Of a DNA stretch of 64,000 nt, positions 14,631-48,816 are shown in pieces. Location: the NCBI GenBank assembly GCA_027038835.1, contig JALWGC010000003.1, forward strand, positions 1-64,000, read 5' to 3'. Numbering within the stretch: position 1 is the first letter of the stretch; every line of letters starts with the position of its first letter. The notes below the pieces were generated by a model. It was not told the origin of the DNA. It saw nothing but the letters and a program-made list of their open reading frames with translations, and did not search any database. Both the position numbers and the translations under genes were made by a program. This DNA comes from Helicobacteraceae bacterium. GTDB lineage: Bacteria; Campylobacterota; Campylobacteria; Campylobacterales; Sulfurimonadaceae.

Positions 14631-15083
14631 TTAGACCTCTATAACGAGCGTTTTCGCACTCAAATCGTGCCATGTGCGTTTAAGAGGGTCCATCATCCCC
14701 CACAAAAATCCAAGATAAAAAAGCATTTCGGAGAAGATGCGCACAACCGCTCTGTTGAGCGATGCACCAAAAGAGGGTTTGTCCAAATTCGTCGGCGAGA
14801 TCACTTTTATTCGCATCATCATCTTCCCAAGCGTCGCGCCGTATTGGTAGATGAAAAAAGCTTGATAGGCGATTTTGAGCAAAATATACTCCAACGTCAA
14901 TTGTTGCGAGAGGGCAACGAGCTCGAGGGTGCTTTGCGCCGAAGCGAAGCTGTTCCAAAACGCGACGACAAGGAGCATAGAGAGGATGAGCTCATCGAGG
15001 AAGAACGCCGTAGCTCTTTTACCTATGGAAGCTAAGCGTATATCCTCTCTGTAAAGGAGGCGTTCTATCTCCTCTTTGTTCAT
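14631..15083 (-). CDS. RDD-family membrane protein
   Basis: About 150 residues from ATG 15083, which overlaps the purD stop (ATGA); the longer open frame is a shadow of purD. The RDD family features are visible: an N-terminal GKRATAFFLDELILSMLLV helix with the R..D pattern, a middle YQYGATLGKMMMRIKV segment and a last helix FLWGMMDPLKRTWHDL with Asp near the end. Three membrane helices. Function of such proteins is poorly known (transport or protein insertion has been suggested). In H. pylori a comparable small gene lies between purD and the lptD gene. Confidence 0.85.
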   Translation of the reverse strand: MNKEEIERLLYREDIRLASIGKRATAFFLDELILSMLLVVAFWNSFASAQSTLELVALSQQLTLEYILLKIAYQAFFIYQYGATLGKMMMRIKVISPTNLDKPSFGASLNRAVVRIFSEMLFYLGFLWGMMDPLKRTWHDLSAKTLVIEV

Positions 15084-16354
15084 TGATCGATAGCCTGATA
15101 CGCGATGTCGCGTCTGAACTGCTTTCCTGCGAAATGAACCTGCCCGCAAAGGAGGTAGGCTCTGTCGCGCGCTTGTTTGATACTTTCGCCAAGTCCGATG
15201 CACAAGAGCACCCTTCCACCCGTTGCAAGGAGTTTCCCTTCTTCGTCGCGTTCCACTCCCGCGTAAACGATGTGGGTATTGTTCTTGAGCTCTTCGTGGT
15301 GAATCTCATCGACGATAATTTCTGCCGGAGTGGAGCTTTTGTAAGGGTAGTTCGCACTTGCCATCACCACGCCGACGGCGTATTGGTCGCTAAAGCTCAC
15401 TTCTATCTCCCCAAGTCGGTTTGTTGCGGCTTTGTAGAACATATCGCTGACACTCGAGGTCATCAGCGGCATCAAGATTTCACACTCCGGATCCCCAAAA
15501 CGTACGTTGAATTCGAGTGTCAAAGGTTCTCCATCAACGATCATCAACCCGATAAAGAGTACACCCTCAAACGGTGCGCCCTCTTTTTGCATCCCATCGA
15601 GGGTCGGGCGGATGATGCGCTCTTTGACTTTTTGGTAGATTTCGTCGTTGACAAGCGGGGTTGGGGCGTATGCACCCATACCGCCGGTGTTTGGACCTTT
15701 ATCACCGTCAAGCAGCCGTTTGTGGTCCTGTGCGGCAGGAAGGAGGATGAAATCTTTTCCATCGCATATAGCGAACATAGAAAGCTCGAAACCATCAAGA
15801 AACTCCTCGACGATCACCCGTTTACCCGCTTCTCCGAACGCCTTGCCGCTTAGCATCTCCCCTACCGTTTTTTTCGCTTCCTCTTTGGTTTGGGCGATGA
15901 TCACCCCTTTACCGGCGCACAGTCCGTCCGCTTTGACGACGATTGGCGTTTTTTCCATCGAGTCGATGAACTTGTAGGCATCTTCGATCGAGTCGGTTTC
16001 GATGTAGCGAGCGGTCGGGATGTCGTATTTTTTCAGGAAGTTTTTCATATACACTTTGCTTCCCTCAAGGCGTGCCGCTTCTTTGCTCGGTCCGAAAATC
16101 GTCAATCCCTCTTTTTTGAATATATCGACTATCCCGTCAACCAAAGGGGCTTCAGGGCCGACTATCGTAAGGTCGATACCGTTTTCTTTCGCCCACGCGG
16201 CGAGCTCTTCGTACCCCATTTTTTCGATATTGGTCGCAAACGCATCGGTCGCGCCGTTTCCGGGCATATAGAACAGTTCATGTTCGTTTTCTTTCGCGAT
16301 AGCAAGCCCTATGCTGTACTCTCTACCACCGTTACCGACTATTAAGATTTTCAT
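15080..16354 (-). CDS. purD: Phosphoribosylamine-glycine ligase PurD
   Basis: An ATP-grasp enzyme for the second step of de novo purine synthesis (phosphoribosylamine + glycine + ATP to GAR). About 424 residues from ATG 16354 (MKILIVGNGGREYSIG); an ATG five codons upstream is less likely. The family segments GNGGREY, the ATP-grasp lysine region VVKADGLCAGKGV, QDHKRLLDGDKGPNTGGMGAY and FNVRFGDPE are all present. It lies directly downstream of the probable 6S RNA gene on the same strand, an arrangement I recall for epsilonproteobacteria. Confidence 0.96.
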   Translation of the reverse strand: MKILIVGNGGREYSIGLAIAKENEHELFYMPGNGATDAFATNIEKMGYEELAAWAKENGIDLTIVGPEAPLVDGIVDIFKKEGLTIFGPSKEAARLEGSKVYMKNFLKKYDIPTARYIETDSIEDAYKFIDSMEKTPIVVKADGLCAGKGVIIAQTKEEAKKTVGEMLSGKAFGEAGKRVIVEEFLDGFELSMFAICDGKDFILLPAAQDHKRLLDGDKGPNTGGMGAYAPTPLVNDEIYQKVKERIIRPTLDGMQKEGAPFEGVLFIGLMIVDGEPLTLEFNVRFGDPECEILMPLMTSSVSDMFYKAATNRLGEIEVSFSDQYAVGVVMASANYPYKSSTPAEIIVDEIHHEELKNNTHIVYAGVERDEEGKLLATGGRVLLCIGLGESIKQARDRAYLLCGQVHFAGKQFRRDIAYQAIDQ

Positions 16355-16427
16355 ATTTGTACGCTCCATGGTTATAAAAAAAGTGGAAAGATTATATCGA
16401 AGTTATGATAAAGAAAGGTTTAGAAAC

Positions 16428-16623
16428 TACCCAAACGGCCGCCATGCTAAGGACTTTGGTTCTCAAAGTCGAAAAATATGCAGATCGAGAGGAACTTTAG
16501 GCGGCAGCTTCTCGCTTCGTTGCCGAAGCTCGAGCGAAGTCACCGACACACCGCCCCTCTACGGCATCCGCAATATGAAAATGTAGAACCCTCATATTGC
16601 AGTGATGCGCACCGTTTAGGCAT
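16428..16623 (-). ncRNA. ssrS: Probable 6S RNA (ssrS)
   Basis: This 195-base gap is full of strong helices. On the minus strand the two ends pair: CCTAAACGG (16620-16612) with CCGTTTGGG (16438-16430). Inside are three hairpins: GCAATATGA/TCATATTGC (16570-16600), a GGCGG/CCGCC arm (16500-16555), and GACTTTG/CAAAGTC (16452-16470). The last one, followed by CAUGGCGGCC before the closing strand, and the segment CGAGAAGC in the middle arm, resemble the corresponding parts of E. coli 6S RNA. A TATAAT lies seven bases before the predicted 5' end. Length and position upstream of purD fit. 6S RNA binds housekeeping RNA polymerase. End points are approximate. Confidence 0.68.
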
Positions 16624-35786: not shown

Positions 35787-38700
35787 ATGATGCAAAGGGT
35801 GTTTTTTATCATTTTGATTCTACTTTCGGTCAGTGCCGGCGCGTCTGCTAGATGTAACGGTTGCGACTGTAGTTTAGATACGCGAGCGAACGACAGTTCT
35901 CCCGGGGTCGCCATCCCGGAGTTGGATGGAGCGACGGATGATGTAACTAAATGTATAAGCGGGAGTTCAAGAAACGATGATAAGGATTATTATCATTTTA
36001 CGCTAGAGAGCGATGGGAAGTTGGAGATTACGACATCTTCTCCAAACGGTCATGACTATCATATGAAGATAAGATCGAATAAGCAGGGGACTTTGCTTAG
36101 CTACGATACCGCTCAAGATAGGTTGCTTTTTTATGATGTAACCGCCGGAGAGAAGATAACGGTTGAATTTGTAGAAACCGGAAGCGGTACGGATGAATAT
36201 GAAGCGACTTTCAAGTTCACGAAATCGGAATCGAGCGGGGGAGATTGTGGCGAATGTGATTGCACGTTGGATACGCCGGCGAACGACAGATCTCCTGGAG
36301 TCGCTATTCCGGAGTTGGATGGAGCGACAAGCGATGTAACGAAGTGTATAATCGGAAGTTCGGAGGACGACGATAAAGATTACTACCATTTTACCGTAGA
36401 AAAAGAGGGTAGACTCGATATCAATACATCTTCTCCAAATGGTCATGATTACCATATGGAAATCGTCTCAAGCGAGAATGGAACCTTATTGGAGTACGAT
36501 ACCGGTCAAAATAGAAATCTTTCCTATTACCTTTCCGAGGGTGAAAAGATAACGATTTTGTTGAAGGAAACCGGAGACGATTTGGATAAATATAAAATCG
36601 ATTTAAGTTTTACGACCGGTATTGTCATTGAAAATGCCGACGATCTTTGCTACGAAGAGAAAGAGTTGGAAGGAGTCTGTCAAGATATAGGTTTGTGTGG
36701 AGGGGGTCTTGGTTGTAAAACTATATACCCGATCAAAAATGTTGGAAGCGAAAATCTTTCAAGTGTAAAAATTGTTATTGAAGAGAGTGAACCGGGAGGA
36801 TCTTTGTTTAGCGATTGCGGTGTGGATCCTGAAGGAGCTGGAGAGTGTAGCAATCAAAGCGATCTCAATTTTGGACCAATTGGAGTGTTGGGGGGTGCGA
36901 CCGTTTACGATTTTAACAACGAGATAGCACCAAACGATAACAGTAACAAGTTTTGGTTTAAAACGAGGGTGTCGGGAAGCTGCTTTTCAAGCGAAGATAT
37001 CTATGCTAGTTATATCAAAAACGGCACTTCGCATCGAGGAAAGTTAAAACGATGCATCGTTGTCGGTAAAGGAAAGGACCGACCATTTAAGATCAGGAAT
37101 CCAGAGCCGACGCGTAATATAGTAGGGAACTATACGATAATAGGTAACAGCAACCAGTGTGCGTTGCATAGTACCAGAGTCACCCCCCCATGGACGGGAA
37201 AATGTTATCAGTCCTACAGCAACAAGCGTCCTTCACGTTATATAGATGTGGATGATGATGTTTCGACGAAAAACTCGACGACTTCCACTTTAAACATACC
37301 TAAAGGTTCTACCGTTGTTTGGGCAGGGCTTTACTGGCAAGGGGTAGTTCACAACTCTACGGTACGCGGTGACTTTATGGGAACATCAGGGCGAGCCAAT
37401 GGTGATACCATCAAGGGTGAGCCGCTGTTTAGTTCGGGTAGGCAAATCAATTTTGAAAAAGCCGGAAGTTCGTACGGTGCGGAGAAGGTTTTGTTCAAAC
37501 TTCCCGGAGGTACTTATACGGAAGTGACGGCGGATGTGTTTGATTATCATAACTTAGGGTATGCCGGGTTTAAGGATGTTACCGATATGTTGAATGCTTC
37601 CGACCCTAACGGTGTATATGCCGTAGCCGATATCAAGTCAAATCAAGGGGTTGAAGACAATCACGGAAATTATGCCGCGTGGTCGTTGGTGGTTATATAT
37701 AAAAACGCCAATGAAACATTTAAAAATATCAGTATTTTTGACGGTTATGCGACAGTCGATAGTCATTTTAACGAAGATCTTGTCGTTAAAGGTTTTTTAA
37801 CACCGAAAACGCCCCCAATCAATTCAAAGATCGCGATGTTCGCTACGGATGGTGACGACGACGAGAACTCTTTGACTGTCGTTTCGCAAAGAGGGAAAAG
37901 TACAAAAATAGAAAATCAAGATCACCCCGGGCATTATCTATTTGATTCGACCATTTCGAATTCGATAGTGCGCAATCCAAATACAACAAGCCTTCGTACC
38001 GATTTGAAAATTTTGGATCTAGTCGATGTTTTAGGACCTACTGAAACAGAAGCGATACTAAAGCCGCGTACCAATGGGGATCGATATACTCCATCCTTTT
38101 TTATTATGTCTGCAGATCTGCGAACCATTGATTTATGCTACGACTATACGTATGGACAAGGTGGTTTTTTTCAGACGGCGCCAAGTATCAAGCCTACAAA
38201 AATCGAAGGAACATTCGATAGTTCAAAACCGATCAATGTTAAATTCTATTTGAAAAATCAAGAGAATTCCGATGTTACGATCGAAAATCTAACTGTTAAT
38301 ATAGAAGATATTAATACTTCGCAAGCCACATATAAAAGAGATACGACTTATGTAACGGTACCGGGAAGCTCTGAACGAACTTTTGTAAAAGATAGTGGAA
38401 GAAAAATTTCGGATGAATACGATAAGGATATCCCCATAGGAGATGTTAATTCGATGGAATATTTCTATACCTATTTTAGTCTTGATCCAAAAAAACCGGA
38501 TATTGAATTCCCTTTACATATTACCTTTAAATATAATTTGATCGTTAAAATAGATAATGAAGTGCTTAGGCTTGATGATTCCAGTGTTAGTATAGAAAAT
38601 ATGAATCCATGCCAAGCAACCAATGGGTACAAGCCTGTACCGGGTCGTTTCAACGTCGTTCACCAAGCGTATAAAAATACCAACTTGAGTTCTGGATACT

Positions 38701-40889
38701 ACTACAACATCCCGACACAGGTCGTAAAAAGATATACCGATAATTTCGTCGTCGAGTCGATGAATCCAAACGACTTGAACGATACCGAGCCAATCAGTAC
38801 CGCCGTCGCGCTGGAGATGGTCGATATGGACGGATTCCACTACGTTACGGCAACTTGTACCGACGTTAACGCGACCGTTTTGAGTAAAAAAAGGTTGTGG
38901 GTGATTTTCGACTCCAACACCTCCGCGTTCAAGCCGCTTACCAAAACCGACTTGGAGCGTGCGGGATTTTTCGACAACGCATCGCGAAACGCTGCGTTTA
39001 GGCTCGCTTACAATGTCGCCGATGCTAACGACAGCGTCATACAGTTGTCGAAAAACGCGAGCGGCAAATACACTATGTTGAACTTTTCCAACTATGCCGG
39101 AGCGAACTGCGCGAGCAGTTTCGTCTCCAGTACCGGAAGCAGGGGTGGAAAGGTGTCTGATTATTGCGGAAGCGGTGCTGGAAAAAGCGGTAACGGTATG
39201 GACGCCAACGAGTTGCGCGAATGTATGGAGTGTATATTCAGTATCAATACGTTTAGAATGTGTTCAAGAGACAACTTCGCCATCCGCCCAGAGGCTTTCA
39301 AGCTGATGTTCTCGGATCAAAATCAAACCAACCCGTCGCAACTCATTTCGCTGGGCAACACAGCGACCAAACTCGATTTGGCATCGGGATACGACTACAA
39401 AGCCGAAGTGAACGCTACAAGCCATGTTGACGACAACGCGACTCCGGGTTACTACGGTGCGGGTTCTACCTTGACGCTTCAGTGGAACTCCACAAAACCG
39501 GCAGGAGCGTGTAACGACACCAACGATGTGGATGTCAATGTGAGTATTATAAACGGTAGAGGAACCGGAGATGTCGTTCTCAATCAGGTAGGGGAGTATA
39601 AATTGCACCTCGAAGATAAAGAATGGACGGCGGCGGATTGGAGATACCTCGCCCACCATAGCGGAAAATATTTCAAAAACGGTACGGATTGTATCGCCAA
39701 TTCCCACGCAGTCGCCAAAGCTTCCACTATGAAGAAAAACGGATGTGTCATCAGTAGTGAGCACAACAACTCCGAGTTTTCGGCATTGAAGTATTTCGAC
39801 TATACGATGGAATTCCACCCTTACAAGTTCGATATCTCTTCGATTGTCAGTTCAGTGGGGCTAGACGACAGTAACGTAACGACGAACGCTTTTGTTTACA
39901 ATGCGAACATGGATGAAAACGCAAGCGGGAACTACGACGATATCAACATGTCATACCACCTCTACGGTTCGGTAATCGCACAAGGGGAGAACAACGCCAC
40001 CTTGTCGAACTTCGTTTCGGGATGTTACGCTAAAGATATCAAAATAGTGCTCCCAAGAAGCGCTTATGCAGATACGAGCATGACTTTCAAAGGAAGCGTC
40101 GAAACGCTCGATGGAAGCAACAACCGCTTGACGATCGTCTTTGAAGATGTGAACAACTCCAAAGATTTCGTCGATGTTTCGAAAAACGCTTTTGCAAAAT
40201 CATTAAACGGAACTGCGAACGTGCGCATCCGCTACAACTTCAAACGTGATATCAACGAATCGAAAAATCCGCAGACTATCACGTTCAAAAAGTTGAGTGT
40301 CGGATGTAAAAACGCTGCCGAGTGCCGCACCAAAGCCGACTTGGGCGATCATGACGTAAATGCGAGTTCGTTTAAAGATATCAACGAAACGATCCGTTTT
40401 TATTACGCAAGAGCGTATGTGCCAGATAGTAAAATCATCGGTAACAGCGGTACGGTCAAGGGGTATTACGAGATTTACTGCTCCGGTAGCGGATGTAACA
40501 AAGCGCTACTACCTCAAGGTGCGGCGTCCAAAGGAAGCGATGACCCAAGATGGTGGATCAACGAGTCCCACACAAGCGGATACGGTAAAATGAAAGAGAT
40601 AAAACAAAAACGAACACCGGTTCATGTAACGTTAAACGGTGCTTCGCCAAGCGGAAACGCTACGGAGAATATTCCGCTTCTTTACGATGAACAAAGGGGG
40701 TATCCGTACAAAGCGACTATGAAGATTATACCGAACAGATGGCTGATATACAACAAATACAACGCAAACGCCGATCATAACGAGTTTGACGTCAAGTTCG
40801 AAGGCAACGGCGAATGGGCGGGTAAAAACTCCTCCAAAAGTGTTACAAACACTTTCAACGCAGATAAATCAAGGATTCTCCAATGGTAA
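35787..40889 (+). CDS. Giant secreted surface protein 1 of the pilus locus (1700 aa)
   Basis: Signal peptide at residues 1-22. Two tandem domains of about 120 residues (starting CNGCDCSLDT and CGECDCTLDT) resemble pre-peptidase C-terminal (PPC) domains and share YYHFT...SSPNGHDYHM. A Cys-rich domain begins at NADDLCYEE (about 283), and a domain with STVVWAGLYWQG (about 508) has a DUF3344-like look. From about residue 951 the tail is almost identical to that of the second giant protein. It contains DNFAIRPEAF and many Asn/Asp-rich strands, so it is probably beta-rich and cell-surface. I do not know its exact family. By context it resembles MshQ/PilY1-type pilus proteins. Its own pilin partner downstream is truncated. 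Confidence 0.8.
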   Translation: MMQRVFFIILILLSVSAGASARCNGCDCSLDTRANDSSPGVAIPELDGATDDVTKCISGSSRNDDKDYYHFTLESDGKLEITTSSPNGHDYHMKIRSNKQGTLLSYDTAQDRLLFYDVTAGEKITVEFVETGSGTDEYEATFKFTKSESSGGDCGECDCTLDTPANDRSPGVAIPELDGATSDVTKCIIGSSEDDDKDYYHFTVEKEGRLDINTSSPNGHDYHMEIVSSENGTLLEYDTGQNRNLSYYLSEGEKITILLKETGDDLDKYKIDLSFTTGIVIENADDLCYEEKELEGVCQDIGLCGGGLGCKTIYPIKNVGSENLSSVKIVIEESEPGGSLFSDCGVDPEGAGECSNQSDLNFGPIGVLGGATVYDFNNEIAPNDNSNKFWFKTRVSGSCFSSEDIYASYIKNGTSHRGKLKRCIVVGKGKDRPFKIRNPEPTRNIVGNYTIIGNSNQCALHSTRVTPPWTGKCYQSYSNKRPSRYIDVDDDVSTKNSTTSTLNIPKGSTVVWAGLYWQGVVHNSTVRGDFMGTSGRANGDTIKGEPLFSSGRQINFEKAGSSYGAEKVLFKLPGGTYTEVTADVFDYHNLGYAGFKDVTDMLNASDPNGVYAVADIKSNQGVEDNHGNYAAWSLVVIYKNANETFKNISIFDGYATVDSHFNEDLVVKGFLTPKTPPINSKIAMFATDGDDDENSLTVVSQRGKSTKIENQDHPGHYLFDSTISNSIVRNPNTTSLRTDLKILDLVDVLGPTETEAILKPRTNGDRYTPSFFIMSADLRTIDLCYDYTYGQGGFFQTAPSIKPTKIEGTFDSSKPINVKFYLKNQENSDVTIENLTVNIEDINTSQATYKRDTTYVTVPGSSERTFVKDSGRKISDEYDKDIPIGDVNSMEYFYTYFSLDPKKPDIEFPLHITFKYNLIVKIDNEVLRLDDSSVSIENMNPCQATNGYKPVPGRFNVVHQAYKNTNLSSGYYYNIPTQVVKRYTDNFVVESMNPNDLNDTEPISTAVALEMVDMDGFHYVTATCTDVNATVLSKKRLWVIFDSNTSAFKPLTKTDLERAGFFDNASRNAAFRLAYNVADANDSVIQLSKNASGKYTMLNFSNYAGANCASSFVSSTGSRGGKVSDYCGSGAGKSGNGMDANELRECMECIFSINTFRMCSRDNFAIRPEAFKLMFSDQNQTNPSQLISLGNTATKLDLASGYDYKAEVNATSHVDDNATPGYYGAGSTLTLQWNSTKPAGACNDTNDVDVNVSIINGRGTGDVVLNQVGEYKLHLEDKEWTAADWRYLAHHSGKYFKNGTDCIANSHAVAKASTMKKNGCVISSEHNNSEFSALKYFDYTMEFHPYKFDISSIVSSVGLDDSNVTTNAFVYNANMDENASGNYDDINMSYHLYGSVIAQGENNATLSNFVSGCYAKDIKIVLPRSAYADTSMTFKGSVETLDGSNNRLTIVFEDVNNSKDFVDVSKNAFAKSLNGTANVRIRYNFKRDINESKNPQTITFKKLSVGCKNAAECRTKADLGDHDVNASSFKDINETIRFYYARAYVPDSKIIGNSGTVKGYYEIYCSGSGCNKALLPQGAASKGSDDPRWWINESHTSGYGKMKEIKQKRTPVHVTLNGASPSGNATENIPLLYDEQRGYPYKATMKIIPNRWLIYNKYNANADHNEFDVKFEGNGEWAGKNSSKSVTNTFNADKSRILQW

Positions 40890-40929
40890 ATAGAAACGGG
40901 TTTTCGATGATAGAGCTGATATTCGCTAT
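38641..40929 (+). repeat. Long direct repeat, copy 1
   Basis: This 2289-base block is repeated at 44116-46404 without insertions or deletions (offset 5475). By eye I see a few mismatches before 38826, none from 38826 to 40842, a handful in 40843-40880, then identity again through the first 47 bases of the pilin frame. It covers the last ~750 codons of the giant gene. Weaker similarity extends to about 38601. Confidence 0.93.
40837..40855 (+). other. Hairpin near the 3' end of giant gene 1
   Basis: AAAGTGT and ACACTTT pair around TACAA, 28 bases before the pilin start. The second copy has the same hairpin at 46312-46330 with a C-G pair where this one has T-A. Confidence 0.4.
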
Positions 40930-40972
40930 AAGGAGCGATGTTGTTTTAAGTCGTGAAAAACATAAAAAGTGA
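40883..40972 (+). pseudogene. Truncated type IV pilin-like remnant
   Basis: The frame begins MVNRNGFSMIELIFAI, identical to the start of the complete minor-pilin gene at 46358, with the peptidase site and Glu5. Identity stops after 47 bases, in the middle of the membrane helix. It then continues for 13 unrelated residues (RSDVVLSREKHKK) to a TGA. A 29-residue product cannot be a pilin. It marks the right end of the duplicated segment. Confidence 0.85.
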
Positions 40973-41040
40973 GTAATAAGGGAAGAAAAGGTGCTATTAA
41001 TAGTTGTCTAAGGTCTTTTTTATATTTCTTTTATCTTAAG

Positions 41041-41050
41041 TATGCTATAT
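41041..41050 (+). promoter_or_regulatory. Promoter-like -10 region before the riboswitch
   Basis: TATGCTATAT lies in A/T-rich sequence about 15-20 bases before the conserved aptamer core. It would start transcription just 5' of the riboswitch, giving the second giant gene and the pilins a promoter separate from the first gene. Confidence 0.5.
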
Positions 41051-41065
41051 TTTGGAGAATTGTGT

Positions 41066-41143
41066 ATGGAGAAAAGCCAAACCTGTCGCGAGGCAGGGAC
41101 GGAAAGCCACGGGTCTCAAAGAGGCAGCCGGGCTGCCTATCAT
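41066..41143 (+). promoter_or_regulatory. Cyclic di-GMP-I (GEMM-I) riboswitch
   Basis: The aptamer core is clear: GCCAAACC (41076-41083), a stem CCTGTC/GGCAGG closed by a GCGA (GNRA) tetraloop (41088-41091), the invariant GGGACGGAAAGCC (41096-41108), a GTCTC/GAGGC hairpin (41113-41125), and the AGCCGGGCT strand with GCTGCC (41126-41137). Aligned to the V. cholerae Vc2 aptamer and to the Geobacter cGAMP aptamer from memory, the base at 41076 is the position-20 specificity base. It is G, as in c-di-GMP binders, not A as in cGAMP binders. The outer P1 helix is weak. It lies in the 5' leader of the second giant gene; the ORF that appears to run through it is not real there. Confidence 0.9.
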
Positions 41144-41190
41144 TTTGAACTCCCGCAAACGGTGTCTTTTCCCACTATACACGCCCATTT

Positions 41191-41216
41191 CACCCTTTTT
41201 TTCAGGGTACAAGGTG
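41191..41216 (+). promoter_or_regulatory. Possible expression platform: pairing over the ribosome site
   Basis: CACC (41191-41194) can pair with GGTG (41213-41216), which includes the AAGG ribosome site of the second giant gene; alternatively ACCC and GGGT form a small hairpin around a T7 run. This suggests translational control, but I cannot model the switch, and no classic terminator with a T-tract is obvious. Confidence 0.35.
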
Positions 41217-41222
41217 CTAAGC

Positions 41223-44200
41223 ATGGAAAACATAAAAACTATCTTTCGAATTGTAGGGTTGTTCTCTTTATTCACGTCGGTACTTTTTGCCGCAAGCTAT
41301 TCATGTCCGGGTGAAGATGTACTTCATATCGACGGTGCAATTGAAAGTACCGCTAAGTCTTACGATACTACAAGCAGATTTATACAAAATGGAGGGGGAC
41401 GTTATTGGAAGTTCGAAACTATGGTCGATGGAACCATAACGATTATGCAAAATACGTTAAAAAATGAACAAAACTACAGAAACCATCGGCTTTTAGTCGG
41501 AACCTCTTGTGGTGGTAGCGATATCTATCAGGGAAAAACATCGACAGCCGATTCGACGACTTTTCCTGTACAAAAAAATAAAACGTACTATGTAAAGATT
41601 GAAGAAAGAAACAATAGAAATCAATTGAATGTTCGTGTTTCATTCGTTTTTGCAAAACAAGGGGATAGCGGATGTAGCGGATGTGATTGTAAGTACGACA
41701 CGGGAAACAATGAAATTTTCAATGATACCTCTCCCGGTGTGAAAATAGCGGAGCTTAGTAATAAAACTACCAAAGAGCAAAAATGTTTCAGTGGTATATC
41801 GGTAAGCGGAAGTGGTCATAACGAGGATAATTTCTATTTTATCGCCGGTACCGATGGAAATGTAAGTGTCAATACTTCTTCTCCGAATATGCACGACTAT
41901 CATATGAAGGTAACAAGAGGCGGCACTGTTGTCTATGCAGATACGACAACAATCAACCATAGCGTACATTTCAAGGTTGCAAAAGGGGATAGAGTAGTTC
42001 TTTACTTCAAAGAAGCGGGAGACGATGCAGACAAATACGAAGCAACAGTAACCTTTGAACCATCCTCTTCCGGGATTATCGAAAATGCCGACGATATTTG
42101 TTACGAAGATATCGTTACGTCCGGAATGTGTATCGGGGCAGGACCGTGTGCCGGTGGTATGCAGTGTAAAAAAGCGTATCCGCTTAAAAATATCGGAGAC
42201 GGAGAGTTGAGCGATGTTACGATTTATTATGACGAAACTGGTTTGGGAGGGACTTTCGGTAAGAGTTGCGGAGTCGATCCATCCGGTACTTGTCAGACCA
42301 AAAGTAATATTGACCTTGGTCCCGTCGGTTTGCTTGGAAAAACCACGGAGTACGACATAACCAATCCTATGCCTATAGGAGACAATTCCACATCTATATG
42401 GTCTAAACCGTTTGCAAGCGGGAGTTGTTTCAACGGAAGCAACCTTTATGCGACCTATATAAAAAACGGTAAACGACATAGAGGGAAAGTGAAGCCTTGT
42501 AGTGTGGATTTTACCTGTGCGAACCCGAAAGATTACGATATCATATACCGAGGAAACGCACATAGTAAAATGATAATGGCGGGTAATACGAATTTGTGCA
42601 AAAGAAAAGGAAAGACAGGTCATGTTTGTCAAACGAATGTGAGCACAAGTACGACCAATAACAATATTTTCATGATCAATGACGATTACGACGACATTAT
42701 AGGCGAGGCGGACTATACCGCTACGCTACATAACTCCTCTGCGGCTTATGTAGATATACCGAAGGATAAAAAAGTCGTATGGGCTGGACTTTTCTGGCAG
42801 GGATATATGGCTGGGACGCTTACCGACGCAGACAAACGCAAAGGCAGAGAGATCAAATTCAAACAAGAGGGCGATACTTATCAAACATATACCGACGGTG
42901 ATATGCATTGGGTTTACATTACCGATAAAAGAATGTACTACCAAAGCTTTGTCAATGTTACAAAGTATGTCAAATCTCATGGTGGCGGTTACTACTGGGT
43001 TGGAGACATCGCTACATCCGAAGGTACACCTGAAGGAGGAAGCTATGGTGCATGGACGCTTGCGGTGGTATATGAAGATGACAACGAACCGTTTCGAAAC
43101 ACAACGATCTTTTACGGCTACAAAGGGTTGATGAAGGGGAAAGATGTTACAAACGCTAAAAGTTATGCTCGTGCGCATGGGTGCCCTAGTGATGACGATA
43201 GTATAGGAATCGCCAACAGCATAGAAGAAACGATTAGCGGATTTCTTACGCCAAAATCAGGCAACGTGGATGCTTCGCTTATCATATTTGCGGGGGAAGG
43301 TGATACATGGGCAAGCGGCGAGTATGGTTATATAACAGATAAGTATGCAAAGAGGCATAAGTTGACAAACGCAAAAAACCCCGATGGCAACATTATGAAC
43401 TCGACCATCACGAAAGATGGTAATTATGTAACAAACGGTAAGCCCCACTTCGGTAACAATAGTTTGGGAATCGATATCGATACGTACGATATGAGCGGAA
43501 AATTAAGCAACTATCAAACATCGACGAAAATTGGTCTTCAAACGGATGGCGATGGTTATTTCCCCGGTATGTTCGGATTTGAAGCGCAACTCAAAGAGAT
43601 GCGGCTCTGTTACGATTTTACATATGGTCAAAACGGTCATTTTCAAACAGCGCCGACAGTTAAACCCCCAAAAATCGAAGCGCAAGTTTCCAAGAATGAC
43701 TCGCTCGATGTCAAGATATATTTCAAAAACCTTGAAAAAGACAGCGATGTGATCGCAAAGAATATCACCGTCGATATCGATGATATCAACACGACACAAG
43801 CAACTTACAAACGTGATTCGACGTATGTAACGCGCCCTAATTCGGCGACGAGAATCGCAGTTCAAGATTCGGGAAGAAGGGTAGCTGACAAGTACGATAA
43901 AGATATACCCGTCGGTGATTTGGGAGGATTGGAGTATTTTTACACCTACTACAGTCTCGAGCCGAAAAAAAGCACTATCGATATGATGTTAAACGCTTTC
44001 TTACGTTACGATCTTGCGGTAAATATAGGTGGAACTACCGTTACGCTTCCGGGCGCACAGACATATATGAAAGACATGAATCCATGTCAGACAACCAATG
44101 CGTACAAGCCTGTACCGGGTCGTTTCAACGTCGTTCATCAAGCGTATAAAAATACCAACTTGAGTTCTGGATACTACTACAACATTCCGACACAGGTCGT

Positions 44201-46364
44201 GAAAAGATATACCGATAATTTCGTCGTCGAGTCGATGAATCCAAACGATTTGAACACTACCAAGCCAATCAGTACCGCCGTCGCGCTGGAGATGGTGGAG
44301 ATGGACGGATTCCACTACGTTACGGCAACTTGTACCGACGTTAACGCGACCGTTTTGAGTAAAAAAAGGTTGTGGGTGATTTTCGACTCCAACACCTCCG
44401 CGTTCAAGCCGCTTACCAAAACCGACTTGGAGCGTGCGGGATTTTTCGACAACGCATCGCGAAACGCTGCGTTTAGGCTCGCTTACAATGTCGCCGATGC
44501 TAACGACAGCGTCATACAGTTGTCGAAAAACGCGAGCGGCAAATACACTATGTTGAACTTTTCCAACTATGCCGGAGCGAACTGCGCGAGCAGTTTCGTC
44601 TCCAGTACCGGAAGCAGGGGTGGAAAGGTGTCTGATTATTGCGGAAGCGGTGCTGGAAAAAGCGGTAACGGTATGGACGCCAACGAGTTGCGCGAATGTA
44701 TGGAGTGTATATTCAGTATCAATACGTTTAGAATGTGTTCAAGAGACAACTTCGCCATCCGCCCAGAGGCTTTCAAGCTGATGTTCTCGGATCAAAATCA
44801 AACCAACCCGTCGCAACTCATTTCGCTGGGCAACACAGCGACCAAACTCGATTTGGCATCGGGATACGACTACAAAGCCGAAGTGAACGCTACAAGCCAT
44901 GTTGACGACAACGCGACTCCGGGTTACTACGGTGCGGGTTCTACCTTGACGCTTCAGTGGAACTCCACAAAACCGGCAGGAGCGTGTAACGACACCAACG
45001 ATGTGGATGTCAATGTGAGTATTATAAACGGTAGAGGAACCGGAGATGTCGTTCTCAATCAGGTAGGGGAGTATAAATTGCACCTCGAAGATAAAGAATG
45101 GACGGCGGCGGATTGGAGATACCTCGCCCACCATAGCGGAAAATATTTCAAAAACGGTACGGATTGTATCGCCAATTCCCACGCAGTCGCCAAAGCTTCC
45201 ACTATGAAGAAAAACGGATGTGTCATCAGTAGTGAGCACAACAACTCCGAGTTTTCGGCATTGAAGTATTTCGACTATACGATGGAATTCCACCCTTACA
45301 AGTTCGATATCTCTTCGATTGTCAGTTCAGTGGGGCTAGACGACAGTAACGTAACGACGAACGCTTTTGTTTACAATGCGAACATGGATGAAAACGCAAG
45401 CGGGAACTACGACGATATCAACATGTCATACCACCTCTACGGTTCGGTAATCGCACAAGGGGAGAACAACGCCACCTTGTCGAACTTCGTTTCGGGATGT
45501 TACGCTAAAGATATCAAAATAGTGCTCCCAAGAAGCGCTTATGCAGATACGAGCATGACTTTCAAAGGAAGCGTCGAAACGCTCGATGGAAGCAACAACC
45601 GCTTGACGATCGTCTTTGAAGATGTGAACAACTCCAAAGATTTCGTCGATGTTTCGAAAAACGCTTTTGCAAAATCATTAAACGGAACTGCGAACGTGCG
45701 CATCCGCTACAACTTCAAACGTGATATCAACGAATCGAAAAATCCGCAGACTATCACGTTCAAAAAGTTGAGTGTCGGATGTAAAAACGCTGCCGAGTGC
45801 CGCACCAAAGCCGACTTGGGCGATCATGACGTAAATGCGAGTTCGTTTAAAGATATCAACGAAACGATCCGTTTTTATTACGCAAGAGCGTATGTGCCAG
45901 ATAGTAAAATCATCGGTAACAGCGGTACGGTCAAGGGGTATTACGAGATTTACTGCTCCGGTAGCGGATGTAACAAAGCGCTACTACCTCAAGGTGCGGC
46001 GTCCAAAGGAAGCGATGACCCAAGATGGTGGATCAACGAGTCCCACACAAGCGGATACGGTAAAATGAAAGAGATAAAACAAAAACGAACACCGGTTCAT
46101 GTAACGTTAAACGGTGCTTCGCCAAGCGGAAACGCTACGGAGAATATTCCGCTTCTTTACGATGAACAAAGGGGGTATCCGTACAAAGCGACTATGAAGA
46201 TTATACCGAACAGATGGCTGATATACAACAAATACAACGCAAACGCCGATCATAACGAGTTTGACGTCAAGTTCGAAGGCAACGGCGAATGGGCGGGTAA
46301 AAACTCCTCCAAAAGTGCTACAGGCACTTCGAACGCAGATAAATCAAGGATTCTTAAATGGTAA
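41223..46364 (+). CDS. Giant secreted surface protein 2 (1713 aa), riboswitch-controlled
   Basis: Start set at ATG 41223, preceded by AAGG, because it gives a proper signal peptide (MENIKTIFRIVGLFSLFTSVLFA); the open frame continues upstream through the riboswitch. Domains: a unique N-terminal PPC-like domain (about 25-142), a second PPC-like domain from CSGCDCKYDT, a Cys-rich domain at NADDICYED, a DUF3344-like part with VVWAGLFWQG, a linker and the constant tail from about residue 965. Head domains are homologous to the first giant protein but well diverged, while the tail is nearly identical. The stop overlaps the pilin start by seven bases. Probably a surface or pilus-tip adhesin made when c-di-GMP changes. 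Confidence 0.82.
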   Translation: MENIKTIFRIVGLFSLFTSVLFAASYSCPGEDVLHIDGAIESTAKSYDTTSRFIQNGGGRYWKFETMVDGTITIMQNTLKNEQNYRNHRLLVGTSCGGSDIYQGKTSTADSTTFPVQKNKTYYVKIEERNNRNQLNVRVSFVFAKQGDSGCSGCDCKYDTGNNEIFNDTSPGVKIAELSNKTTKEQKCFSGISVSGSGHNEDNFYFIAGTDGNVSVNTSSPNMHDYHMKVTRGGTVVYADTTTINHSVHFKVAKGDRVVLYFKEAGDDADKYEATVTFEPSSSGIIENADDICYEDIVTSGMCIGAGPCAGGMQCKKAYPLKNIGDGELSDVTIYYDETGLGGTFGKSCGVDPSGTCQTKSNIDLGPVGLLGKTTEYDITNPMPIGDNSTSIWSKPFASGSCFNGSNLYATYIKNGKRHRGKVKPCSVDFTCANPKDYDIIYRGNAHSKMIMAGNTNLCKRKGKTGHVCQTNVSTSTTNNNIFMINDDYDDIIGEADYTATLHNSSAAYVDIPKDKKVVWAGLFWQGYMAGTLTDADKRKGREIKFKQEGDTYQTYTDGDMHWVYITDKRMYYQSFVNVTKYVKSHGGGYYWVGDIATSEGTPEGGSYGAWTLAVVYEDDNEPFRNTTIFYGYKGLMKGKDVTNAKSYARAHGCPSDDDSIGIANSIEETISGFLTPKSGNVDASLIIFAGEGDTWASGEYGYITDKYAKRHKLTNAKNPDGNIMNSTITKDGNYVTNGKPHFGNNSLGIDIDTYDMSGKLSNYQTSTKIGLQTDGDGYFPGMFGFEAQLKEMRLCYDFTYGQNGHFQTAPTVKPPKIEAQVSKNDSLDVKIYFKNLEKDSDVIAKNITVDIDDINTTQATYKRDSTYVTRPNSATRIAVQDSGRRVADKYDKDIPVGDLGGLEYFYTYYSLEPKKSTIDMMLNAFLRYDLAVNIGGTTVTLPGAQTYMKDMNPCQTTNAYKPVPGRFNVVHQAYKNTNLSSGYYYNIPTQVVKRYTDNFVVESMNPNDLNTTKPISTAVALEMVEMDGFHYVTATCTDVNATVLSKKRLWVIFDSNTSAFKPLTKTDLERAGFFDNASRNAAFRLAYNVADANDSVIQLSKNASGKYTMLNFSNYAGANCASSFVSSTGSRGGKVSDYCGSGAGKSGNGMDANELRECMECIFSINTFRMCSRDNFAIRPEAFKLMFSDQNQTNPSQLISLGNTATKLDLASGYDYKAEVNATSHVDDNATPGYYGAGSTLTLQWNSTKPAGACNDTNDVDVNVSIINGRGTGDVVLNQVGEYKLHLEDKEWTAADWRYLAHHSGKYFKNGTDCIANSHAVAKASTMKKNGCVISSEHNNSEFSALKYFDYTMEFHPYKFDISSIVSSVGLDDSNVTTNAFVYNANMDENASGNYDDINMSYHLYGSVIAQGENNATLSNFVSGCYAKDIKIVLPRSAYADTSMTFKGSVETLDGSNNRLTIVFEDVNNSKDFVDVSKNAFAKSLNGTANVRIRYNFKRDINESKNPQTITFKKLSVGCKNAAECRTKADLGDHDVNASSFKDINETIRFYYARAYVPDSKIIGNSGTVKGYYEIYCSGSGCNKALLPQGAASKGSDDPRWWINESHTSGYGKMKEIKQKRTPVHVTLNGASPSGNATENIPLLYDEQRGYPYKATMKIIPNRWLIYNKYNANADHNEFDVKFEGNGEWAGKNSSKSATGTSNADKSRILKW

Positions 46365-46404
46365 ATAGAAACGGGTTTTCGATGATAGAGCTGATATTCG
46401 CTAT
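44116..46404 (+). repeat. Long direct repeat, copy 2
   Basis: Second copy of the 2289-base repeat described at 38641-40929, at a constant offset of 5475. After 46404 the sequence continues into the intact pilin gene, while copy 1 breaks off. Confidence 0.93.
46312..46330 (+). other. Hairpin near the 3' end of giant gene 2
   Basis: AAGTGC pairs with GCACTT around TACAG, the counterpart of the hairpin at 40837-40855, with a compensated base pair. It lies just before the start of the first minor-pilin gene. Confidence 0.4.
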
Positions 46405-46771
46405 CGTGGTGATATCGATAGGGGTTTTGTCGCTGCCGATGATGAGCGAGGTAACTTCCAACGCATCGGCTAGCACGATGAAAACAGAAGAGGCGGTGTT
46501 CGAAGCGTATGTAAAGGCGCTTGAAGTGACCGATGCCGGATACGACGACTTAAACGGTACCGGCGGCTATGTGAACGTAGCTTCACTTGCAAGTGACAAG
46601 TCGCAAGGATTGAAGTTAGGTACACAGATGAAAGCGACGGTTCAAAGAGGTGTCGCTTTTTTACAAGGTGGCGCGGCGGATAACAATATAGCGCTCGTTA
46701 CCGTCGAGGTCAAAGATGCCGACGGGCTCATAGCACGTTTATACACGTACGATTTTAACGTGAGTAGGTAA
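46358..46771 (+). CDS. Type IV minor pilin / pseudopilin, PilV-MshD-like
   Basis: 137 residues. MVNRNG is the leader; cleavage before FSMIELIFAIVVISIGVLSLP leaves Phe1 and Glu5 and a hydrophobic helix, the hallmark of class III signal peptides processed by PilD. The globular part is short, with no Cys pair. Its ATG lies inside the end of giant gene 2 (ATGGTAA), so translation is coupled. It is the first of three consecutive pilin genes, as in the minor-pilin clusters of type IV and MSHA pili. Confidence 0.87.
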   Translation: MVNRNGFSMIELIFAIVVISIGVLSLPMMSEVTSNASASTMKTEEAVFEAYVKALEVTDAGYDDLNGTGGYVNVASLASDKSQGLKLGTQMKATVQRGVAFLQGGAADNNIALVTVEVKDADGLIARLYTYDFNVSR

Positions 46772-46773
46772 TT

Positions 46774-47736
46774 ATGAAACTGCGAAGAGATGGATTTACC
46801 CTTTTGGAATTGGTTTTTGTTATTGTCGTGTTGGCGATAATATCGAAATTCGGTGTCGAGTTTTTGGCGCAGGCTTATAGAAACTACCTCGACCAAGAAG
46901 TAACGAGCAGACTTGCCAATACAAGTTCGAGTGCCGTGGAGTATATAGCCAAGAAGCTCCAATACCGCATACGAAGCTCGGTGATAGTGCGAAAAGATTT
47001 GAGTGATTACAAAGCGCTCGAGGGGTTCAATCTAACAGGTGCGAATGCCGAAGAGTACAAAACGCTTGAGTGGATAGGGTACGACATAGAAGGTTTTAGA
47101 GGAGCTGGAGACGGTGAGCCGTACTGGAGTGGCGTAATCGATAAAAAAGCCTCTTTGGACAGTAACACGTACATCTTCACTAAAGGAAGCAATCTCAACA
47201 AAGTCAATCTTTTGATTAAAAAGCTTTCATACAACCACTCTACTATCGACGATGCCGCTATTTACATTTTTTCCGCACAAAACGACATATACAAAAGTTT
47301 CGGATGGTACGGAGGGGAGAAAATAAAAGACCAAACGCTCGAGTACGCTATGCATCCGGTTAAAGAACAAAACACTACGGCATTCGCTCCGGGGCCGGAT
47401 TCAGATGGCAACCCGACAACCTTTAGCGACCTTTTTACCGATGTCAAAGATAGAGGGGAATGGGACGCTCGCTACTACCTCGCTTGGACGGCGTATGCGG
47501 TCAAACTCGATGCGGCTACGAAAAAGTTGATACTCTATTACGATTTTCAACCGTGGCAAGGGGAGAAATATACCGACGGGAAACAGCAAACACTTATGGA
47601 GAACGTCAATACGTTCAAAATGATTCAAAAACAAGGAATTATAAAAATTCAGGTGTGTACGACAAGCGACGTAAACGGAACTGGAAAACTCGATATAGGT
47701 GGATTCGCGCTATGCAAAGAAAAAACTATTTACTAA
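46774..47736 (+). CDS. Type IV minor pilin / pseudopilin, PilW-MshO-like
   Basis: 320 residues, long for a pilin. Leader MKLRRDG, then FTLLELVFVIVVLAIISKFGV with Glu5. The large C-terminal part is polar and ends with CTTSDVNGTGKLDIGGFALCKE, a Cys pair likely to form a disulfide. Size and position (second, after the PilV-like gene) fit PilW/MshO. It starts two bases after the previous stop and overlaps the next gene by 25 bases. Confidence 0.85.
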   Translation: MKLRRDGFTLLELVFVIVVLAIISKFGVEFLAQAYRNYLDQEVTSRLANTSSSAVEYIAKKLQYRIRSSVIVRKDLSDYKALEGFNLTGANAEEYKTLEWIGYDIEGFRGAGDGEPYWSGVIDKKASLDSNTYIFTKGSNLNKVNLLIKKLSYNHSTIDDAAIYIFSAQNDIYKSFGWYGGEKIKDQTLEYAMHPVKEQNTTAFAPGPDSDGNPTTFSDLFTDVKDRGEWDARYYLAWTAYAVKLDAATKKLILYYDFQPWQGEKYTDGKQQTLMENVNTFKMIQKQGIIKIQVCTTSDVNGTGKLDIGGFALCKEKTIY

Positions 47737-48209
47737 AAAAAGGCTCCAAAAGAGGCGGTTTCGCCTTGGTCATGGCGGTAGCGTTGTTAGTGATTTTGGC
47801 GACCATTATGGCGTTTTCGATTCAGATGACGGCGAAATCGCAAAAAAGAGCGGTCGATATTTACGTAGAAAACCAAGCTATACTCTATGCCAAAAACGTA
47901 GCGGAATATTTCGTCTATAAAATCAGCCAAGACAAAAACTGTACGACACAGAAAAATTTCGACATCAACATCAACCAAAGCCCGAAATATCATGCGAAAG
48001 TGAAGCTTTTTTATATCGTTTCCGATATGGACAACACCCATTACTGTAAACAGCAAAGTGATCTGAACCTGACTGCCGGGCATGATGAAGACCCGTACGC
48101 TTACGTGCGTATCGACGTTACGATGGATGTGAGTGACGGCAACATCACTTCGGAGCCTATCAGGATTTTTCGACGCTATGTGGAGGATATCACCCCGTTT
48201 GTGTATTGA
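47712..48209 (+). CDS. Type IV minor pilin / pseudopilin, PilX-GspK-like (no Glu5)
   Basis: 165 residues from ATG 47712, with AGGTGG eight bases before it; the longer frame is a shadow of the previous gene. A basic leader MQRKNYLLKKGSKRGG precedes FALVMAVALLVILATIMAF. Position 5 is Met, not Glu, as in GspK and other tip pilins. A Cys pair (NCTTQ and HYCKQQ) may form a disulfide. The gene closes the riboswitch-controlled operon. Confidence 0.85.
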   Translation: MQRKNYLLKKGSKRGGFALVMAVALLVILATIMAFSIQMTAKSQKRAVDIYVENQAILYAKNVAEYFVYKISQDKNCTTQKNFDININQSPKYHAKVKLFYIVSDMDNTHYCKQQSDLNLTAGHDEDPYAYVRIDVTMDVSDGNITSEPIRIFRRYVEDITPFVY

Positions 48210-48273
48210 TTTTATCCCTATTTAACTCTGTAGTGATATAATTCGAAATTAATGCAATAACAAAGGGTTGAAA

Positions 48274-48816
48274 ATGAACGTTTCTTTCACAGGAAGACAC
48301 ATAGAGCTTACAGATGCTATCAAAACGCACCTAAACGCTTCTTTGGAGTCTTTGAGCAAATTCAATATGGATATAATTTCCGCCAATGTCGTCGTGGAAT
48401 CGCAGCAACGAAAAAGTAAAGAGCATTTTACCGTCGAGTTTACGATAAATCTCGCACATAAAGGAACGGTCGTCATCAAACAAAGAGATGAAGACCTGCA
48501 TGCAGCTATCGATTTGGCGACCGATAGAGCGCAAAAGGCGCTTCGTCGCATTCACGATAGAGAGACCGACCATCAAAAAGTAGGGCTCAATGCCGCAAAA
48601 GCGGAAGCGAACGAGGGGATAAACTTAAGTGAAGCCAAACTCAGCGAAGAGGACGAGATAGTTCCGGTAGAGCTTGATTTGTACAAACCGCGAGAAGTGG
48701 AAGATGTTTTGGAAGAGTTGAAAAACTCCGACAAAATGTTCGAAATCTTCATCGACAACGCCGGTAAAACACGTGTTTTGTACAAAAGAAACGATGGGCG
48801 TTTCGGGCTGTATTGA
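48274..48816 (+). CDS. hpf: Ribosome hibernation promoting factor, long form
   Basis: About 180 residues from ATG 48274, with AAGGG upstream. The N-terminal HPF/RaiA domain has the typical VSFTGRHIELTDAIKTHL, DLHAAIDLATDRAQKAL segments. The C-terminal domain (about 125-180: VEDVLEELKNSDKMFEIFIDNAGKTRVLYKRNDGRFGLY) is the dimerisation domain of the long type. It parks ribosomes as 100S dimers in slow growth. A separate leader follows the pilin operon. Confidence 0.93.
   Translation: MNVSFTGRHIELTDAIKTHLNASLESLSKFNMDIISANVVVESQQRKSKEHFTVEFTINLAHKGTVVIKQRDEDLHAAIDLATDRAQKALRRIHDRETDHQKVGLNAAKAEANEGINLSEAKLSEEDEIVPVELDLYKPREVEDVLEELKNSDKMFEIFIDNAGKTRVLYKRNDGRFGLY

Follow-up and report, generated by a model that had tools for sequence, protein, structure and literature searches.

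Two giant genes beside minor-pilin genes

The 64,000-nucleotide window analysed here lies on contig 3 of a 1.97-Mb draft genome in 19 contigs. It carries two giant genes in tandem (Table 1), which a first-pass annotation had described as encoding two proteins of about 1700 residues with signal peptides, diverged heads and the same tail. That description holds. Both reading frames are intact, both N-termini look signal-peptide-like when read by eye, the last ~760 residues are 98–99% alike and the heads are ~30–40% alike. The longest frame of gene 2 opens at TTG 41052, at the riboswitch. Because this longer frame overlaps the riboswitch, TTG 41052 is not a credible start and we prefer the ATG given in Table 1.

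Table 1. Features of the giant-gene locus and of the pilus assembly cluster in the same genome.
Feature	Position	Strand	Description
Giant gene 1	35787..40889	+	1700 aa, uninterrupted ORF and translation
Head 1 core (DUF3344-type)	37053..38147	+	headcore HMM 333 bits; nearest relatives Sulfurovum L111, L081
Gene-conversion tract, copy A	38826..40842	+	100% identical to 44301-46317
Pilin-gene stub after gene 1	40883..40929	+	matches the pilin at 46358 over its first 46 nt; unrelated beyond
c-di-GMP-I-GGC riboswitch aptamer, gene 2 leader	41067..41141	+	RF03167, 67.7 bits (gathering cut-off 59)
Giant gene 2	41223..46364	+	1713 aa from ATG 41223, intact ORF
Head 2 core	42495..43619	+	head type differs from head 1; headcore HMM 386 bits; sister to Nitratifractor L104
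Tail of gene 2	43620..46361	+	~930 aa; Ig-like domain first, no Pfam family, NRRxxW-type C-terminus
Gene-conversion tract, copy B	44301..46317	+	100% identical to 38826-40842
PilV/GspI-like minor pilin	46358..46771	+	N_methyl PF07963, weak TIGR02523 PilV
PilW/GspJ-like minor pilin	46774..47736	+	320 aa; N_methyl, GFxxxE
PilX/GspK-like pilin	47712..48209	+	165 aa; from sequence; weak ComGG match
HPF/S30AE gene	48268..48816	+	~2 kb past the end of the tail; neighbour conserved by synteny
MSHA-type assembly cluster (L050)	own genome, contig 14, 145001-165000		MshE-related c-di-GMP-motif ATPase, MshL-like secretin, four pilin-like genes

The stop codon of gene 2 overlaps the start codon of the PilV-like pilin (ATGGTAA), and the PilW- and PilX-like genes lie downstream; such placement of a giant gene in a minor-pilin operon is a feature of PilY1. 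The PilX/GspK-like pilin lacks a Glu at +5 (GFALVMAVALLV). An AlaS-like gene follows HPF, and BamD and Lon lie upstream on the other strand. As the first-pass annotation had also noted, only the second giant has both a riboswitch and an intact set of three pilin-like genes. Gene 1 is followed by a stub that reads MVNRNGFSMIELIFAIRSDVVLSREKHKK and then stops. This remnant shows that pilins once followed the upstream copy as well.

Tail identity and its edges

Compared base by base, the tails of the two genes match over 2017 bp without a mismatch, third codon positions included. The left flank of this tract holds 17 mismatches in 235 bp and the right flank 7 in 39 bp; beyond the right flank, 48 identical bp take in the opening 46 nt of the pilin gene, and there homology ends abruptly. 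This identity, together with the edges of the tract, is far beyond chance. Because perfect identity is bounded on both sides by diverged, alignable sequence, we read the pattern as gene conversion inside an older duplication; on this sequence evidence, recent conversion is what made the two tails identical. Selection alone was ruled out as the cause, since 2 kb are identical at third positions too and the flanks differ. A simple fresh tandem duplication was also ruled out, because the heads differ by ~60–70% and both tract edges have diverged. A phage or defence origin of the locus was rejected (0 matches in PHROGs and PADLOC), and none of the plasmid records searched carries a related tail; the locus called for no interpretation in terms of defence, toxins or virulence.

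At aligned positions, the two giants are 13–66% identical up to about residue 950 of giant 2 and 94–100% identical from there to the C-terminus. The first-pass annotation had placed the split between head and tail at this point (~950 and ~750 residues). The edge of near-identity does fall there, but it is the edge of the conversion tract and not the domain boundary, which comparison across species puts at about residue 800 (see below).

A misjoined repeat could in principle have produced the tandem, given that short reads cope poorly with a perfect repeat of 2 kb and that the genome is a 19-contig draft. However, the tract copies differ at both edges, their flanks are distinct and similar but diverged tandems are present in other genomes. 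We consider an assembly artefact very improbable.

Domains of the heads and the tail

Giant 1 is built from a signal peptide, two PPC-like domains, a Cys-rich domain, a DUF3344-type head domain and the tail. Its PPC match (PF04151; E 1.3e-4) scores 23.2 bits, below the curated cut-off of 25.9. The DUF3344 model (PF11824) matches the head 1 core at 37215-38090 with 29.4 bits, above its curated cut-off of 27.2; this match is seen with the core and is absent from a full-length scan of giant 1. The head 2 core does not reach the DUF3344 model. Our structural model of head 2 (pLDDT 75) begins with PPC/ColG-CBD-like domains and superimposes on ColG CBD 3B with Z 12.5 and an rmsd of 2.4 over 108 residues, a likeness that does not imply collagen binding. 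A PDB sequence search with the head reached only E ~0.07, to ColG collagenase.

The AlphaFold model of the tail has a pLDDT of 86. Structure comparison identifies its first domain as Ig-like (Z 10.4 over 130 residues); past this domain, Foldseek yielded diffuse beta-sandwich matches only, from which we assign no fold, and most matches of the tail are to generic beta-sandwiches. No Pfam family matched the tail, and a PDB sequence search with it found no relative. The domains had been called unfamiliar in the first-pass annotation, which suggested modelling head and tail separately. That description holds only in part, given the PPC/ColG-like folds of head 2, the PPC and DUF3344 matches of head 1 and the Ig-like start of the tail. 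The separate models gave folds for head 2 and the start of the tail but little for the remainder.

In the model of the tail alone, the last 25 residues are unstructured (pLDDT <50). A terminal Trp is nevertheless present in 71/71 complete tails, with an R/K pair at -4/-5 in 62/71. By a strict motif, a prepilin start overlaps the giant's stop in the overlapping NTG frame in at least 51 of 71 giants, with several more found by eye. This start/stop overlap constrains the tail end at the DNA level, and the terminal Trp is kept also in copies where no pilin uses the overlapping frame. We infer that the NRRxxW C-terminal peptide is a candidate pilin-docking strand. The idea that the tail is unusually conserved across species was ruled out: it is only ~29–45% identical in other genera, like the heads.

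Related loci in Campylobacterota

Relatives of the giants are encoded in 187/228 genomes of the same taxonomic family, and nearly all named relatives of the tail are from Campylobacterota (Sulfurimonas, Sulfurovum, Sulfuricurvum, Sulfurospirillum, Hydrogenimonas, Nautiliaceae and Arcobacter). Homologues were gathered with tail-derived patterns, so the sample is non-random and biased to recognisable tails, and many of its members are metagenome bins. A literature search on Sulfurimonas pilus adhesins found nothing relevant. Across the family the proteins consist of a variable N-terminal extension (0 to ~600 aa), a head core of ~345–375 aa and a tail of ~930 aa. The extensions match PPC, PKD, Ig, cadherin-like and galactose-binding-like domains.

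The usual locus has one giant that overlaps the first of three PilV/PilW/PilX-like pilins, followed by HPF. Thus the layout seen in the window, which the first-pass annotation proposed to look for elsewhere, recurs across genera in the same order, with HPF ~2–2.8 kb past the tail end in most of 38 loci. Its two-giant system is real here but is not the norm, since most of the 79 loci carry a single giant.

Different histories of heads and tails

Trees of heads and of tails, built from 35 proteins, disagree at strongly supported branches. The two tails of the window form one branch (100/100) of the tail tree, beside L081 and L057. Four genomes have two usable giants (that of the window, L074, G028 and L129), and in each the tails pair within the genome in 98–100% of bootstrap trees; pairing was judged against the other groups, with weaker support for L129 and with a sequence that belongs to none of the groups placed inside the G028 pair. 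The heads pair within the genome in 0% of bootstrap trees for all four. The head 1 core is instead sister to Sulfurovum L111 (100/99), and the head 2 core, in a different part of the head tree, is sister to Nitratifractor L104 (100/100); both heads have their nearest relatives in Sulfurovaceae. Giant 1 is 64% identical to L111 in the head and 29% in the tail. The head 1 core differs from that of L111 with a dN of 0.30 and saturated synonymous change; dN/dS was dropped as a measure for the heads because dS is saturated.

The codon composition of both heads is foreign. GC3 is 0.42–0.44 in both heads of the window, whereas the tails have 0.57 and the AlaS-like gene 0.54; over 59 giants, the mean head-minus-tail difference is -0.009 (sd 0.049). 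The most economical interpretation is that both heads were acquired laterally.

Over 44 giants, tails diverge in step with the PilW-like pilin next to them (Mantel r 0.70, p 5e-4), whereas heads do not (r 0.13). We used HPF as a vertical marker at 39 loci and obtained r values of 0.71 with the tail, 0.76 with the pilin and 0.11 with the head. The tail–pilin correlation given HPF is 0.36 (permutation p 0.001). Much of the co-divergence of tail and pilin is shared vertical descent. The proposal that the tail belongs with the pilins is supported by these values, by its overlap of the first pilin gene and by the conversion that keeps the two copies the same.

The mosaic is also visible in pairs. 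Where tails are at least 60% alike, heads fall below 35% in 5/10 pairs (four from one Sulfuricurvum group, plus the window pair); where heads are at least 60% alike, tails fall below 40% in 10/30. Sliding identity plots of independent pairs switch sharply at about residue 800 of giant 2, just before an FCYDY motif. For example, L083 and L086 are 29% identical in the head and 77% in the tail, and L055 and L096 drop from ~71% to 25% at the junction. Sequence comparison across species thus places the head/tail junction at about residue 800. Read together, the trees and the identity profiles show that heads are traded across genera and families at a fixed junction and that tails are passed on with the pilins.

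Leaders and expression signals

The selectivity position of the gene 2 riboswitch is a G, as in c-di-GMP binders, according to our own reading of the Rfam alignment. Gene 2 and its pilins are probably under control of this element, with c-di-GMP as the predicted ligand. Folding of the gene 2 leader revealed no clear switch and was not better than shuffles (z -0.84). The genome has seven c-di-GMP-I-GGC riboswitches in all. The six others, all over the gathering score, are on contigs 2, 5, 11, 14 and 16 (L164-L168) and precede lipoproteins or secreted proteins: an MtrC/F-like multihaem cytochrome, a DUF1800 protein, collagen-repeat proteins (one with a CAP domain) and an F5/8-metallophosphatase. 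From these neighbours, the set looks like a surface-protein regulon. A riboswitch precedes the giant also in G039, G036 and G221, with a weak match in G036 (24.5 bits). Elsewhere in the window, a purD RNA motif (16429-16562, minus strand; RF01069, 72.4 bits) lies directly upstream of the minus-strand gene at 15080-16369 and is an ordinary cis-regulatory RNA.

Nothing comparable to the gene 2 riboswitch was found upstream of gene 1, and scoring for a consensus sigma-70 promoter there returned none. With its pilin stub, gene 1 could be a silent relic, a duplicate without pilins whose tail is identical only through recent duplication or conversion; upstream giants without pilins recur in L074 and L075. 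Against this stand the 1700 uninterrupted codons, the identity that the head 1 core has kept with L111 despite saturated synonymous change, and two signals read by eye, an SD-like AAGGAAGG before the ATG and a TATAAT at ~35710. We think it rather unlikely that gene 1 is a relic.

Loci with several giants

Tandem or multiple giants were found in L074, L075, L126 and L129, and the contigs of L115 and of the genome of L092/L128 point to them there too. L129, a Sulfurovum MAG contig, has three giants in a row, the first of them followed by complete pilins; its giants 2 and 3 have 1.1 kb of 3' sequence in common at 78.5% identity. L126 is a contig binned as a Thermoproteota archaeon that carries two Campylobacterota-type giants, probably a binning error. 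The contigs of L092 and L128 (one genome) and of L115 end inside the tail, those of L092 and L128 at the same tail position. Identical tails have perhaps been collapsed in assembly, and multi-head loci may therefore be under-counted in drafts.

The two copies of the tract are direct repeats of 2017 identical bp at a spacing of 5475, and RecA-type exchange between them would delete 5,475 bp (head 2 and the riboswitch) and fuse head 1 to the intact pilins. The population would then be mixed, with gene 1 as a reserve head. The recurrence of multi-giant or collapsed-tail loci (L074, L075, L126, L129, L115 and G028) fits such a switch, as does the common end point of L092 and L128, as if assembly broke there. 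However, the deletion is one-way without re-supply, and no recombinase or site-specific signal came to notice. We regard a recombinational head switch as unlikely.

Filament machines in the same genome

On contig 14, the c-di-GMP motif of the MshE-related ATPase is over its cut-off and the MshL-like secretin, at 231.7 bits, is slightly below its own (250.2). This cluster also encodes a 1329-aa giant with two LamG domains, the C-terminal part of which weakly matches the tails of the window (31%, E 4e-9). Because the genome has three GspE/PilB-type ATPases, the pilins of the window could serve any of three filament machines.

Alternatively, the giants might belong to a type II secretion system, as its substrates or pseudopilus partners. 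An I/J/K-like pilin trio is common to type II secretion and type IV pili, and the genome encodes a separate GspG-like pilin as well as a further GspE/PilB-type ATPase on contig 14. But the fused giant–pilin operon has the layout of PilY1 and MshQ loci, the tail is evolutionarily locked to the pilins and an MSHA-type machine is at hand in the same genome. A secretion role strikes us as quite improbable.

Proposed role of the locus

The giants are probably tip adhesins of a type IV (MSHA/PilY1-like) pilus, in which a lineage-locked tail docks on the pilins and exchangeable heads bind ligands. The ~930-residue tail, translated in overlap with the first minor pilin, would dock the giant on the minor-pilin tip complex. 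The head, in which a DUF3344-type domain joins a varying series of PPC/Ig/PKD-type domains, would contact a surface or ligand. The locus has undergone duplication and loss of the upstream pilins, of which only the stub is left; its copies bear two different heads, most simply read as laterally acquired, on tails that gene conversion has equalised. Gene 1, with its own leader, could load head 1 on the pilin set of gene 2. Gene 2 may be raised or lowered by c-di-GMP, and, if the MSHA-type machine is used, the MshE-related ATPase would let the same messenger act on both pilus extension and tip choice.

A further step would be that tips are swapped by homologous recombination. Conversion-locked tails would be the handle by which incoming heads, or reserve heads held in tandem, move onto one fixed pilin operon, with the riboswitch timing the head at the expressed site. 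We offer this step as doubtful. If it is true, homologous recombination gives a cell lineage the means to change its adhesion specificity.

What a cell sticks to is decided by its type IV pilus tip adhesins, and ideas on changes in their specificity come largely from PilY1. The giants form a family separate from PilY1 that is common in Campylobacterota, for instance in Sulfurimonas and Sulfurovum. In this family, sequence directly reveals the head/tail junction, the locking of the tail to the pilins and the exchange of heads between families. The junction at about residue 800 offers a precise cut site for domain studies. Tip choice would also be linked with a riboswitch regulon, among whose members are a multihaem cytochrome and other surface proteins.

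Comparison with known systems

The first-pass annotation likened the layout to MshQ/PilY1 loci, a resemblance that stands, yet without a match to PF05567 or PF20419. The MshQ gene adjoins mshO/mshP-type pilin genes, and MshQ, like the giants, is a giant putative adhesin next to such pilins; an MSHA-type machine is present in the window's own genome. Unlike MshQ, the giant precedes its pilins and has no DUF6701 (PF20419) match: Pfam searches at E<=1 found none in giant 1, giant 2 or 32 tails, and a whole-genome search for DUF6701 was silent, as were all its controls. A distant MshQ/DUF6701 relation of the giants may exist. The role of MshQ as an adhesin of MSHA pili is described as putative (PMC7096442).

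A single filament with alternative tip complexes is also found in the Kil (Tad) pilus of Myxococcus, where tips are interchangeable (PMC12075869). In that pilus, the variable domains sit on the minor pilins themselves, whereas here they are part of a separate giant that is not a pilin. DUF3344 proteins are related to the locus through the head 1 core, which matches above the cut-off; the head 2 core is below the model. DUF3344 is among ambiguous clusters predicted as fibrillar adhesins (PMC9210967). On the regulatory side, the GEMM-I (c-di-GMP-I / cGAMP) regulons of Geobacter resemble the one described here in that several riboswitches of this class stand ahead of genes for surface proteins, a multihaem cytochrome among them (PMC6456294).

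The giants are also alike in logic to the PilY1/PilC tip adhesins (Myxococcus PilY1.1-3 and Acinetobacter ComC). These, too, are large proteins encoded with minor pilins, have a conserved C-terminal and a variable N-terminal part, come in several versions per genome and undergo cassette exchange. For PilY1, genomes encoding several proteins that share a conserved C-terminal part and differ in the N-terminal part are on record (PMC13190605); for ComC, the picture of one handle with an interchangeable tool has been put forward (PMC10374093). The giants differ in lacking PF05567, which a sequence-based search at E<=1 did not find in either giant or anywhere in the genome, and in having as their tail a different, unnamed beta-rich domain. 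They also exchange heads within the gene at a fixed junction, with tail and pilins staying in place. The logic of interchangeable tips is thus already published for PilY1/ComC; by analogy, it would operate here in an uncharacterised protein family.
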